32,255 nt of DNA from Nocardioides sp. Its GTDB lineage: Bacteria; Actinomycetota; Actinomycetes; Propionibacteriales; Nocardioidaceae. Below, one piece after another: positions 24,800 through 28,891 of the stretch. The notes beneath the pieces were generated by a model. The model had not been told where the DNA came from. It saw nothing but the letters and a program-made list of their open reading frames with translations, and did no database searches. The stretch covers positions 1 to 32,255 of the forward strand of contig JAOPXG010000110.1 in the NCBI GenBank assembly GCA_025965275.1, given 5' to 3'. The position numbers and the translations under genes are program-made. Position 1 is the stretch's first letter. Every line of letters starts with the position of its first letter.

Positions 24800-26149
24800 T
24801 CAGGGCATCAGGGTCGCGGCGGGCCTCCCCGTGATCGACGCATCGAGGACCTCGACGGTGTGGGCCATGCCCATCGGGTGGCCCGACCTGTCGATGGCCG
24901 AGGCCACCTGCATCAGGCAGCCCGGGTTGGCGGTGACGAGCAGTTGGGCGCCGGTGGCGACGATGTTGGCCGCCTTCCGGTCGCCGAGCTCGCGCGCGGG
25001 CTCGGGGTTGAGCACGTTGTAGATGCCGGCGGAGCCGCAGCAGATCTCGCCCTCCGCGATCTCGCGCAGCTCGAGTCCGGGGATCGCTTCGAGCAGCCGG
25101 CGCGGTTCGGCGCGCACGCCCTGGGCGTGGGCCAGGTGGCAGGCGTCGTGGTAGGCGATGGTCATCTCGAGCGGGTGCCGCGGGGCGACCGGCCCGAGCT
25201 CGTCGAGGATCTCCGAGACGTCGCGGACCCGGTCGGCGAAGGCGCGGGCGCGGTCGGCGTACGCCGGCTCGTCGGCCAGCAGCTCGGCGTACTCCTTCAT
25301 GGTGGAGCCGCAGCCGGCGGCGTTGACGACGATCCACTCGACGCCGCGGTCCTCGAACGAGTCGACGAGCCTGCGGGCGAAGCCCTGCGCCTCGGCCTCG
25401 CGGCCGTTGTGGACCGACAGCGCGCCGCAGCAGCCCTGCGCGGGCGGGACGACGACGTCGCAGCCCTCGGCCCGGAGCACCCGCGCGGTCGCGGAGTTCA
25501 CCCCGGGGAAGAACGCGCTCTGCACGCAGCCGGTCAGCAGCCCGATGGTCGCCCGGCGCTCGCCGGTCGCAGGGATCAGCTCGGGCAGCGGCTCGGGTCG
25601 GCCGAGCCGCGGAGCGAGCCGCTCCATCGCGGCCAGCTGGGGGGCCATCCGGTCGAGCAGGCCGGTGCGCCGCATCGCCCGGTCGAGCCCGGTGCGCTGC
25701 AGGAGCCGGAGCGGACCGCGCAGCAGCCGCAGCCGCTTCGGGTGCGGGAAGAGGGCGAAGATCAGGCCGCGGAGCGCGCGGTCGCCGGCGGAGCGGTCGT
25801 GGTGGCGCTCGACCTGGGCGCGGGTCTGCTCGATGAGGGTGTCGTACTGCACGCCCGACGGGCAGGCCGTCACGCAGGCCATGCACCCGAGGCAGGCGTC
25901 CCAGTGGGACACCATCGCGTCGGTCATCGGCGCGCCCTCGAGGCCCTCCTTCATCAGGTAGATCCGGCCGCGCGGCGAGTCCATCTCCTCGCCCCACAGG
26001 ATGTACGTCGGGCAGGTCGGCAGGCAGAAGCCGCAGTGCACGCAGTCGCCGACCAGGGCGGCGTCGGGCGGGCGGTGCTCATCGAAGGCCCCGCCCTCGA
26101 CGGGCGCGCCGAAGTCGACGATGGCGCCGGTCTCACCGAGGTCCGTCAC
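24800..26149 (-). CDS. glcF: Glycolate oxidase iron-sulfur subunit
   Basis: GlcF passes electrons from the FAD subunits GlcD/GlcE to the membrane. The 449-residue protein has two 4Fe-4S ferredoxin motifs, CVHCGFCLPTCPTY (C36, C39, C42, C46) and CLGCMACVTACPSG (C86, C89, C92, C96), followed by two CCG-type cysteine-rich domains: GCCGALSVHNG, and YHDACHLAHAQGV with EICCGSAGIYNVL. The GTG at 26149 has GGAGG 6 bases upstream and overlaps the glcE stop in TAGTG, so the two are coupled. Confidence 0.95.
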   Translation of the reverse strand: MTDLGETGAIVDFGAPVEGGAFDEHRPPDAALVGDCVHCGFCLPTCPTYILWGEEMDSPRGRIYLMKEGLEGAPMTDAMVSHWDACLGCMACVTACPSGVQYDTLIEQTRAQVERHHDRSAGDRALRGLIFALFPHPKRLRLLRGPLRLLQRTGLDRAMRRTGLLDRMAPQLAAMERLAPRLGRPEPLPELIPATGERRATIGLLTGCVQSAFFPGVNSATARVLRAEGCDVVVPPAQGCCGALSVHNGREAEAQGFARRLVDSFEDRGVEWIVVNAAGCGSTMKEYAELLADEPAYADRARAFADRVRDVSEILDELGPVAPRHPLEMTIAYHDACHLAHAQGVRAEPRRLLEAIPGLELREIAEGEICCGSAGIYNVLNPEPARELGDRKAANIVATGAQLLVTANPGCLMQVASAIDRSGHPMGMAHTVEVLDASITGRPAATLMP

Positions 26150-27258
26150 TAGATGCCTCCTACGAAGCGGCCCGGCGCCAGGCGGTGCTCGGGGTCGAAC
26201 TGGTCCTTGACCCGGCGCATCAGGTCGAGGGCCGGCACCGGCCCCCACACGTCGACGGCCTGCTTGACGTCGTCGGGCGCGTCGACCACGACGACCGAGC
26301 CGCCGTGCCGCGCGCAGACCGCCCGCAGGGCGTCGAGCGCGCCGGCGTCGTCGGCCGCGGCGTGCACGACACCGGCGCCGGCCGAGCCGCGGACGTGCAC
26401 ACCCGCCTCGCGCGCGGCGGTGAGCACGTCGCGCAGGCCGGACAGGGCGAAGGTGAGCTTGAGCAGGACGGGTCCGGCCGGGTACGCCGCCCAGCCCGGC
26501 GGGGTCGTGTCGGTGACCTCGGCGGCGTCGCCGAGGAGGCGTCGTACGGTCTCCGCACGGTCGGCGACGCCCTCGGCCTTGCCGCCGAGCAGCACCCCGA
26601 GGGTGCCGGGCCCGGACGCCGGGAGGTCGACCTCCACCGCCCACGGCACGGCCTGCGAGTGGACGACCGCCTGCGCGAGCTCGTGGGCACGGCCGGGGCC
26701 GTCGACCGGCGTGACGACCCAGCGCTCGACGTCGGGGAGCGGGTGCAGCCGGAAGACCGCCTCGGTGATGACCGCGAGGGTGCCGTAGGAGCCGATCACC
26801 AGCTTGCCGAGGTCGTAGCCGGCGACGTTCTTCACGACCCGGCCACCGGCCTTGGCGACGACGCCGTCGGCGCGGACCACGGTGACGCCGATGAGCAGGT
26901 CGCGGGCGGTGCCGAAGAACATCCGCTGGGGGCCCGAGGTGTTGGTGGCCAGGGCGCCGCCCACCGTCGTGCCGGGCACGGTCTCCTCGAGGACGAGTCG
27001 CTGGCGCTCCGTGCCGACGACGTCCTGCACGTCGGAGAGGAGCGCGCCCGCCTGGGTGTCCACGATCAGGTCACCCGCCTGGTGGTCGAGCACCCGGGCG
27101 AGGCCGCTCAGGTCGACGACGAGGTCGGCCGAGGTCGGCGGCATTCCCCACCCCTGCTTGGTCCCTCGACCGCGGGCGACGACGGTGAGCCCGCGCGACG
27201 TGGCGTCGCCCAGCACCTCCGCGACCTCGGCGGTGCTGGTCGGGTGCGCCTCCTCCAC
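26149..27258 (-). CDS. glcE: Glycolate oxidase FAD-binding subunit GlcE
   Basis: A 369-residue FAD-linked oxidase of the GlcE type, shorter than GlcD and lacking its long C-terminal domain. PCMH-type FAD motifs are VARGRGTKQGWGMPP, LVVDLSGLARVL, ETVPGTTVGGALATNTSGPQRMFFG and KNVAGYDLGKLVIGSYGTLAVITEAVF. The start is a GTG at 27258 whose first base is the last paired base of the palindromic element upstream (27258-27425). GGTGA 6 bases ahead is a weak ribosome site supplied by the element itself; GGAGGAGG lies just after the start codon. If the element is removed, the glcD stop and this GTG would overlap as TAGTG, as at the glcE/glcF joint. The stop overlaps glcF. Confidence 0.93.
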   Translation of the reverse strand: MEEAHPTSTAEVAEVLGDATSRGLTVVARGRGTKQGWGMPPTSADLVVDLSGLARVLDHQAGDLIVDTQAGALLSDVQDVVGTERQRLVLEETVPGTTVGGALATNTSGPQRMFFGTARDLLIGVTVVRADGVVAKAGGRVVKNVAGYDLGKLVIGSYGTLAVITEAVFRLHPLPDVERWVVTPVDGPGRAHELAQAVVHSQAVPWAVEVDLPASGPGTLGVLLGGKAEGVADRAETVRRLLGDAAEVTDTTPPGWAAYPAGPVLLKLTFALSGLRDVLTAAREAGVHVRGSAGAGVVHAAADDAGALDALRAVCARHGGSVVVVDAPDDVKQAVDVWGPVPALDLMRRVKDQFDPEHRLAPGRFVGGI

Positions 27259-27425
27259 TAGTGGTCACCACCGGAAATTCGTCGGGTGTCCCGCACCCCG
27301 GGCACGCACCTCGCGGCGTTGCCGCCCCTCGCGGGACGACCAAGTACGGCTTCGCGACGGCGCCTTGCGATGCACGCACCCGAAGCACGGGCCACCGCCG
27401 ATGAACTTCCAGTGGCAACCACTAG
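27258..27425 (-). repeat. Long palindromic element (MITE-like) filling the glcD-glcE junction
   Basis: CTAG lies at both ends (27258-27261 and 27422-27425) around a 160-base core. The two arms, about 58 bases each, match as inverted repeats with few true mismatches; on the minus strand they fold into one long hairpin with about 13 G-U pairs, a 2-base bulge and four mismatches. The central part (about 27310-27370) can make smaller stems such as GTCCCGC/GCGGGAC. It encodes no transposase and is too short for one. The ends suggest a MITE of the IS630/Tc1 type that duplicates TA within CTAG, or a dispersed structured repeat. It begins inside the glcD stop codon and ends at the first base of the glcE start. 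Confidence 0.85.
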
Positions 27426-28891
27426 AACACCTCCGCCAGTCCGGCTTCCTGGAGCGGGTGGGCACCCTTGTGCCGGCCCGGCACCTCGCCGCAGAGGCGC
27501 GGCGTCGGGAAGACCTTGCCGGGGTTGGAGATGCCGTCGGGGTCGAACGCGCAGCGCACCAGCTGCATGGTGTCGAGGTCGGCCTCGTCGTACATCCGCG
27601 GCATGTAGCGCGCCTTGTCCATGCCGACGCCGTGCTCGCCGGTGATCGACCCGCCGTGCTCGATGCAGAGGTCGAGGATCGCGCCGCTGACCTCCTCGGC
27701 CGCCTCGGCCTCGCCGTCCTTCGACTCGTCGAAGAGCACCAGCGGGTGGAGGTTGCCGTCACCGGCGTGGAAGACGTTGGCGACCCGGACGCCGGACGTG
27801 CCGGACAGCTCGGCGATGGCCTTGAGCACCTCGGGCAGCGCGGTCCGCGGGATCACGCCGTCCTGGACGATGTAGTCGGGGCTGATCCGGCCGACGGCGG
27901 CGAACGCCGACTTGCGGCCCTTCCAGATCAGCGCCCGATCGGCCGGGTCGGTCGCGAGCCGCTGCTCGAAGGCGCCGTTGTCGTTGCAGAGCCGTTCGAC
28001 CTCGTCGTACTCCGCGGCCACCTCGACCGCCGCGCCGTCGAGCTCGATGACCAGGACGGCGCCGGCGCCGTCCGGGTAGTTGCAGTGCACGGCTGCCTCG
28101 GCGGCCTCGATCGCGAGGGCGTCCATCATCTCGATGGCCGCGGGCACGATGCCGGCCGCGATGATCGCGGAGACCGCGGCGCCGGCCTGGTCGGTCGACG
28201 CGAAGCCGACCAGGATCGTGCGCACCTCCTCGGGCAGGCGGACCAGCCGCACGGTCGCCGACGTGACGATGCCGAGGGTGCCCTCGGAGCCGACCACCGC
28301 GCCGAGCAGGTCGTAGCCCGGGGTGTCCGGCGCGATCCCGCCGAGCTGGACGACGTCGCCCTGCGGGGAGACGAACTCGGCGCCGAGCACGTGGTTGGTG
28401 GTGAAGCCGTACTTCAGGCAGTGCGCACCGCCGGAGTTCTCGGCGACGTTGCCGCCGATCGAGCAGATCTGCTGGCTCGAGGGGTCGGGCGCGTAGTAGT
28501 AGCCGTGCGGCGTCGCGGCCCGGGTGACGTCGAGGTTGATGACGCCGGGCTCGACGACGGCGCGCTGGTCGTCGGGGCGTACGGCGGTGATCGTGCGCAT
28601 CTTCGACGTCACGACGAGGACACCCTCGGCGTGCGGCAGCGCGCCGCCGGACAGGCCGGTGCCCGAGCCGCGGGCGACGAACGGGACGCCGTGCTCGGCG
28701 CAGGCCCCGACCACGCCCGCCAGCTGGGCGGCGTCCTCCGGGATGACCACGAGCGCGGGCACGACCCGGTAGTGGGACAGCCCGTCGCACTCGTAGGTGC
28801 GCAGCCGGGCGACGTCGGTGATCACGCCCTCGGGCGGGATCAGCTCCCGGGCCCGCTGGGTGACCGCGTCGACGCCTGGCATCCCCGGCAT
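27422..28891 (-). CDS. glcD: Glycolate oxidase FAD-linked subunit GlcD
   Basis: GlcD oxidises glycolate (or D-lactate) to glyoxylate with FAD. The 489-residue protein has the PCMH FAD domain (VVIPEDAAQLAGVVGACAEHGVPFVARGSGTGLSGGALP and SIGGNVAENSGGAHCLKYGFTTNHVLG, VVGSEGTLGIVTSATVRL) and the C-terminal FAD-linked oxidase domain with VANVFHAGDGNLHPLVLFD and IEHGGSITGEHGVGMDKARYM. GEHG and FHAGDGNLHP hold the substrate-site histidines. The ATG at 28891 overlaps the upstream stop as TGATG; an ATG three codons later is possible. The stop TAG lies inside the end of the palindromic element. Confidence 0.96.
   Translation of the reverse strand: MPGMPGVDAVTQRARELIPPEGVITDVARLRTYECDGLSHYRVVPALVVIPEDAAQLAGVVGACAEHGVPFVARGSGTGLSGGALPHAEGVLVVTSKMRTITAVRPDDQRAVVEPGVINLDVTRAATPHGYYYAPDPSSQQICSIGGNVAENSGGAHCLKYGFTTNHVLGAEFVSPQGDVVQLGGIAPDTPGYDLLGAVVGSEGTLGIVTSATVRLVRLPEEVRTILVGFASTDQAGAAVSAIIAAGIVPAAIEMMDALAIEAAEAAVHCNYPDGAGAVLVIELDGAAVEVAAEYDEVERLCNDNGAFEQRLATDPADRALIWKGRKSAFAAVGRISPDYIVQDGVIPRTALPEVLKAIAELSGTSGVRVANVFHAGDGNLHPLVLFDESKDGEAEAAEEVSGAILDLCIEHGGSITGEHGVGMDKARYMPRMYDEADLDTMQLVRCAFDPDGISNPGKVFPTPRLCGEVPGRHKGAHPLQEAGLAEVF

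Follow-up and report, generated by a model that had tools for sequence, protein, structure and literature searches.

The window analyzed here is a stretch of 32,255 nucleotides from Nocardioides sp. (contig JAOPXG010000110.1). The segment of interest lies between two open reading frames on its minus strand, for which we adopted the names glcD and glcE from the first-pass annotation, a reading of the sequence without database searches. That annotation had noticed a palindromic element exactly between the glcD stop codon and the glcE start, and direct reading together with folding confirmed its presence. It had been described as a 160-base element flanked by CTAG; the CTAG copies are found at both ends, but the length is 168 bp. 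The limits of the whole element are based on sequence reading, host copies and folding. Strand S designates the strand forming the stronger hairpin, in the window element the minus strand, which is also the sense strand of glcD and glcE.

27422-28891, minus strand: open reading frame named glcD
26149-27258, minus strand: open reading frame named glcE, with GTG as the first possible start
27258-27425, minus strand: whole element, 168 bp
27422-27425, no strand: CTAG copy whose TAG is the glcD stop codon
27403-27425, minus strand: terminal inverted repeat on the glcD side, CTAGTGGTTGCCACTGGAAGTTC
27284-27398, minus strand: conserved hairpin core, recognised by model R1 with E 4.3e-20 and 109.9 bits (the rows on which R1 was trained include the window copy)
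27361-27368, minus strand: first strand of a near-invariant motif, GCAAGGCG
27313-27321, minus strand: second strand of this motif, CAACGCCGC (CAACGCNGC)
27258-27280, plus strand: terminal inverted repeat on the glcE side, CTAGTGGTCACCACCGGAAATTC
27258-27261, no strand: CTAG copy that, on strand S, supplies with its last G the first base of the predicted glcE start codon GTG

The element is a near-palindrome with CTAG at either end. Its outer arms (28 nt, ungapped) are 82% complementary, in line with the earlier remark that the arms agree at most positions, and the minus strand folds into a single hairpin over the full length with -112.8 kcal/mol (z -9.0; 200 dinucleotide shuffles gave a mean of -75.6 and a standard deviation of 4.1). 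The plus strand reaches -81.7 kcal/mol (z -4.1). As already stated in the first-pass annotation, there is no transposase gene within 27258-27425.

The host assembly, which has 4.38 Mb in 416 contigs and is 87% complete, contains 10 matches to the window element. Six of these, the window copy included, span at least 166 of the 168 positions with 88-100% identity; four of the six have exact CTAG at both ends and the other two are one base off at one end. The copies are dispersed and their flanks are unrelated, which is the pattern that the annotation had named as support for a miniature inverted-repeat transposable element (MITE), and the element is accordingly not a single-copy feature. Among 39 genomes searched, 11 contain a match to it, counting the host. 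At the end of G000:C404 (L086), at position 88 of G000:C52 (L004) and at the Frankia loci L111, L112, L115 and L116, a contig is interrupted next to a copy or within it, or the copy is replaced by a run of N that reflects an assembly gap or masking. Given these breaks and N runs, the true copy numbers may be higher than counted.

The insertion site was reconstructed using relatives. In three genomes of the same genus (G010, G011 and G001) and one of the same order (G054) glcD ends with TTCTGATG, where glcE overlaps (TGATG). When the element is deleted from the window together with one CTAG, the joined sequence reads TTCTAGTGG at the place where the relatives read TTCTGATG. The insertion at CTAG thus preserved both the TAG that terminates glcD and the GTG predicted to start glcE. 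A target duplication of TA and one of CTAG give the same sequences here, and the empty site is a reconstruction. A different short palindromic repeat (GGTCGAGCCGCGAGCGAAGCGAGCGTGTCGAGACC) was seen near the glcE start at the glcE 5' end of G001 (L237).

The annotation had guessed at an IS630-type MITE, and the guess is supported by the dispersed copies, the CTAG ends and an end class, CTAGTG, in common with IS630 loci. Genes for IS630 transposases (PF13358) were detected in 26 of 116 genomes searched, and the host assembly, which is 87% complete, gave no DDE_3/PF13358 match. The annotation had also proposed to look for an IS630-like transposase with matching terminal repeats, and for the end class this was successful in relatives: elements of 1.13-1.22 kb bounded on either side by CTAGTG were present at 13 of 30 fetched IS630 (DDE_3) loci, the 13 originating from 12 genomes, in a search for end pairs that required only TA and inverted similarity, not CTAGTG. 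In genome G014 the ends of an intact IS630 (NF033545, 245 bits at a cut-off of 100) match those of a MITE of the same genome at 19/21 and 15/21 positions; this MITE belongs to another subfamily than the window element. A degenerate IS630 in G030 (NF033545, 62 bits, below the 100-bit cut-off) carries the end CTAGTGTCCTGAGTC, which is also present on MITEs of other genomes. The window element's own end CTAGTGGTTGCC agrees at 14/21 positions with the better of two IS630 ends compared, none of the 30 IS630 loci has an end within 4 of 20 of it, and no autonomous partner for the exact end (CTAGTGGTYRCC) was found in the genomes examined. A search for an autonomous element with the end CTAGTGTCCTGARTC gave matches in 7 of 77 genomes; those of the loci that were read contained hairpin elements, deletion derivatives, isolated ends and, in one case, a broken IS630. 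A looser end pattern allowing one mismatch gave mostly chance matches, and the control pattern gave more. The L178 piece has an NCBIfam match and no Pfam match. At L222 (1375-2481, G014) the reading frame of the IS630 transposase terminates with the TAG contained in the CTAG end of the same element.

Going by the title of a 1991 publication of Tenzen and Ohtsubo, IS630 reportedly prefers the TA in CTAG. Insertion at TA with duplication of the TA is the mode of IS630 elements, demonstrated in vitro for ISY100 (PMC2170065). An IS630-family transposase acting in trans would recognise the CTAGTG-type ends, excise the element and insert it at the TA within CTAG, with duplication of the target. From the ends, the copies and the reconstructed empty site we infer that the window element was moved in this way by an IS630 transposase.

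The ends are not constant among elements with the same core. Relatives carry this core between other ends, among them CTAGTGTCCTGAGTC, CTAGTGCCGCGTCTC, CTAGTGGCGTGTCGC and CTAGTGACCTGCACT, and more distant elements found with R1 have ends such as CTAGGGGCTGTCGTTTGGATCA, which agrees at 18/22 positions with the end of the IS5 element L161 of another genome. L161 encodes PF13340 and PF01609 in the correct frames and has CTAG ends; of 30 IS5 loci fetched, 21 were examined, and only 4 of them showed paired CTAG-like ends. A search for the core within 60 loci of IS5 and IS630 gave two weak matches (E 0.14 and 0.49), and the core was taken as absent from them. As read from these sequences, the same core occurs across the phylum with different ends, some of them IS630-like and some IS5-like.

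Several further arrangements were observed. At L122 (G164:C22) roughly 60 bp separate an element from an IS5 (PF13340) gene, and the two may have one CTAG in common. The end CTAGTGTCCTGAGTC occurs in G056 (L186, L194, L198, L202 and L181) and in G008 with differing cores and in two families of the order; several of these copies look identical over the printed stretch in G056 and G008, which suggests recent activity. Deletion derivatives with both ends and a lost or shortened core were found at L049 (1491-1523, 33 bp), L093 (1501-1599, 99 bp), L110 (7213-7279, 67 bp), L179 (1501-1597, 97 bp) and L190 (1501-1524, 24 bp), and that at L093 looks like a recombination between GGTGCGTGC direct repeats of the core. 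At L085, at about 1480-1530, two outward-facing element ends are located on one common CTAG (GATTCAGGACACTAGTGTCCTGAATC), a tandem or an inside-out remnant.

Using model R1, which was built from 27 cores, members were identified in 22 of 396 genomes of the phylum (the host included) and 12 of 237 genera; the phylum was taken as Actinomycetota from the named matches. The exact window-type end is present in named genomes in 10 stretches, from Frankia sp. CIT1 (6), Nocardioides (2), Actinocrispum and Actinophytocola. Four full elements were measured, and those of N. ferulae, Actinocrispum and Actinophytocola have 168 bp and that of Frankia 167; the interior of the Actinocrispum, Actinophytocola and Frankia elements differs strongly from the window element. 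Among the 27 elements bounded on both sides by an exact CTAG, the length is 165-171 bp in 26 (168 bp in 14 of these) and 190 bp in the remaining one. Plasmid searches with the element of L119 yielded 50 records, 46 of them from Streptomyces, and those with the window element and with L144 gave no match. On viral contigs 3 stretches match a longer motif pattern. Rfam gave no match within an element in 12 loci at the gathering score; a relaxed search of 11 loci placed only MIR898 over an element (L119, E 1.7; 22.8 bits, where the gathering score is 75), which was taken as chance. Ysr141 matched L136 at 105-321, which is outside the element there, and this match was disregarded. Among the matches listed in searches of the literature on MITEs and repeats of actinomycetes, on IS630 and on ERIC (titles and beginnings of abstracts; most subscription journals lie outside the coverage) no description of the family was found. 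In the available text of a 2024 review of MITEs the words 'actino', 'streptomyces' and 'is630' do not occur (PMC10969869).

The inner part of the element, which lay outside the account of the first-pass annotation, is the unusual one. In 69 distinct core rows (alignment A3, fitted to the model) standard pairs fill 92.4% of 1833 cells, and double changes occur in 25 of 27 pairs. The cells with double changes number 336 in these rows, compared with 104.7 (standard deviation 9.0) after shuffling and at most 63 with the partner slid. An alignment of 27 cores by MAFFT, made without fitting to a model, still has double changes in 22 of 27 pairs. Part of this covariation can stem from template switches in the DNA that repair the palindrome. 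The two strands GCAAGGCG and CAACGCNGC face each other across an internal loop, and each of their bases is conserved in 61 to 70 of 70 rows. Judged by these alignments, the core is a conserved structured hairpin and not transposon debris. Because the hairpin is conserved widely in the phylum while the ends were exchanged, the hairpin itself probably does something.

The two strands of the element are not equivalent. When 62 non-redundant elements (70 rows minus one secondary match, one contig edge and six near-duplicates) were folded as stretches extended regardless of their ends, S as defined by the motif folded better in 61; the model used to collect this set itself favours pairing on S. For elements retrieved by BLAST or by an end pattern, without a structure model, the same result was obtained in 44 of 45 cases, with ends chosen by complementarity. 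For 34 of these, fixed stretches of 120 nt were folded with no choice of ends; S was better in 31, and L021, L032 and L036 were slightly better on the other strand. The advantage of S stems largely from G-U pairs. At the non-Watson-Crick arm positions of the 62 elements, S contains 488 G-U and 171 A-C oppositions (253 and 69 in the outer 40 nt of each arm). Purine-purine oppositions number 483 and pyrimidine-pyrimidine 78, and given this difference a plain composition bias of S may contribute.

The orientation relative to genes is mixed: for 42 copies with both neighbours we counted 9 >>, 13 <<, 8 convergent (><) and 12 divergent (<>) arrangements, using a crude gene finder that cuts reading frames at the element edge, so that distances were not used. 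A terminator or 3'-end signal selected together with the upstream gene was rejected on account of this mixture, within the precision of that gene finder. Since a strand effect on the host side should follow the host genes, yet the orientation is mixed, S would be selected for the success of the element itself and not for the adjoining host gene, presumably as RNA and less likely as single-stranded DNA. At the locus described here, the glcD-glcE mRNA would carry a hairpin of 168 nt between the two frames, which would probably alter processing of the message.

The position exactly between two genes, with the stronger strand in their sense, could also be explained by a conserved cis-regulatory element of the glcD-glcE operon. 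We consider this highly improbable, because the core is absent from 12 of 12 other glcD-glcE loci collected with a GlcE query (best E 0.1, compared with 5e-22 for the window), copies adjoin other genes, and glcD and glcE overlap in G010, G011, G054 and G001. These observations refute an ancestral feature of the operon, and with it the possibility, raised by the annotation, that the element is present at every such junction; a lineage-specific effect on the expression of glcE is possible. The window copy might, on the other hand, have been moved by a transposase of the IS5/IS427 type instead of IS630. Elements with the same core and IS5-like ends exist elsewhere, the host has one IS5 (PF13340) gene, and CTAG is a target of the IS5 type as well, as described for MITEPsy1 of Pseudomonas syringae (PMC3189936). 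The sequence adjoining the host IS5 gene is, however, GAGACACGCCCTAG (CTAGGGCGTGTC class) and not CTAGTGG, so the window copy does not have its ends in common with the host IS5 element, and CTAGTG ends were seen on IS630 loci; this mover is therefore rated as very unlikely.

A more serious alternative, which we nevertheless regard as rather unlikely, is an ordinary IS630 MITE with a functionless core, whose long inverted repeat is kept palindromic by template switching of the DNA. It would account for the near-palindromic nature of the whole element and for Watson-Crick covariation, which can arise by template switching, and the internal deletion derivatives demonstrate that the palindrome rearranges. 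Template switching should, however, erase mismatches and not leave G-U mainly on one strand (488 compared with 171 A-C), and divergent ends around a persisting core are the reverse of what recognition by a transposase alone would keep. In our interpretation, the window element is probably a non-autonomous DNA transposon, namely a MITE of the IS630/Tc1 type, with a conserved hairpin core that would be under selection on S.

Several known elements resemble this one in part. RUP of Streptococcus pneumoniae (IS630-Spn1) is likewise short and geneless, with IS630-class terminal repeats and a TA-type target (PMC2229807), and the same source names RUP as the one repeat whose ends had been found to resemble those of an IS; the family described here differs from it by a structured core conserved across the phylum, a narrow length range and the occurrence of the same core with IS5-like ends elsewhere. 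The Yersinia palindromic sequence YPAL (RU-2, 167-168 bp) is comparable in length and is described as palindromic and MITE-like (PMC2759123), but it has no TA at its termini according to Table 1 of PMC2229807. YPAL and RU-3 were rejected as relatives, with a motif score of 11/16, the commonest shuffle score. MITEPsy1, probably of the IS5 type, is similar in its CTAG or YTAA target and the absence of genes (PMC3189936); it has 100 bp and other ends. The Correia/NEMIS elements of Neisseria are reported to be MITEs whose hairpin is transcribed as part of mRNA and cleaved by RNase III (PMC2229807, PMC10969869).

A resemblance was also noticed in ERIC (RU-1, 127 bp), which has a long one-strand-biased hairpin, TA at its termini with duplication of TA, as reported for ERIC-type enterobacterial repeats (PMC2759123), and the inner motif; its ends are different and its inner hairpin is longer. 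The E. coli consensus contains GCAAGGCG, 60 bases and CAACGCAGC on the better-folding strand (-61.8 compared with -45.2), a motif score of 16/16, with the motif located at the inner end of the outer stem. A score of 16 was reached by none of 40000 first-order Markov shuffles and 15 by 8 of them, and 15 was reached by 1 of 3000 palindrome-like shuffles, in a test that was framed after the resemblance had been seen. The Salmonella reference ERIC scored 14/16 and ten further copies 12-15/16 with gaps of 51-61, and the motif strand folded better in 10 of 10 ERIC copies. The covariance models did not detect ERIC significantly: R1 gave 2.2 bits (E 8.6) and R2 6.2 bits (E 1.9), both out of register. 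With the motif-centred model R3, a search of 34.5 kb gave 14 matches, headed by a pair of nearly identical ERIC copies from Rahnella that reached at best 14 bits and a non-significant E of 0.37; a Pantoea copy followed at E 5.2, and the other seven of the ten copies had no match at E up to 10. We regard kinship with ERIC as a lead. Tentatively, and with more doubt than conviction, ERIC and these actinobacterial elements might be seen as two branches of one ancient superfamily of one-strand hairpins with the GCAAGGCG/CAACGCNGC motif, in which the hairpin was inherited and the ends were taken from the CTAG- or TA-targeting IS630 or IS5 of the respective host. How ERIC moves is not explained in the passages on it in PMC2759123 and PMC2229807.

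Taken together, the element appears from its sequence to be an IS630-type MITE of a kind that we did not find described, with exchangeable ends and a conserved hairpin. MITEs are usually thought to retain only the ends that are read by the transposase. The present family does the opposite: across much of the phylum its interior persists while its ends vary, and these ends resemble those that belong to two transposase families with no relation to each other. The inside is thus the thing to explain, a structured hairpin with a bias for one strand that rides on other elements. A concrete motif and covariance models are now available to test this, and the findings may also point to where ERIC, which is widely used as a marker for typing, originated.
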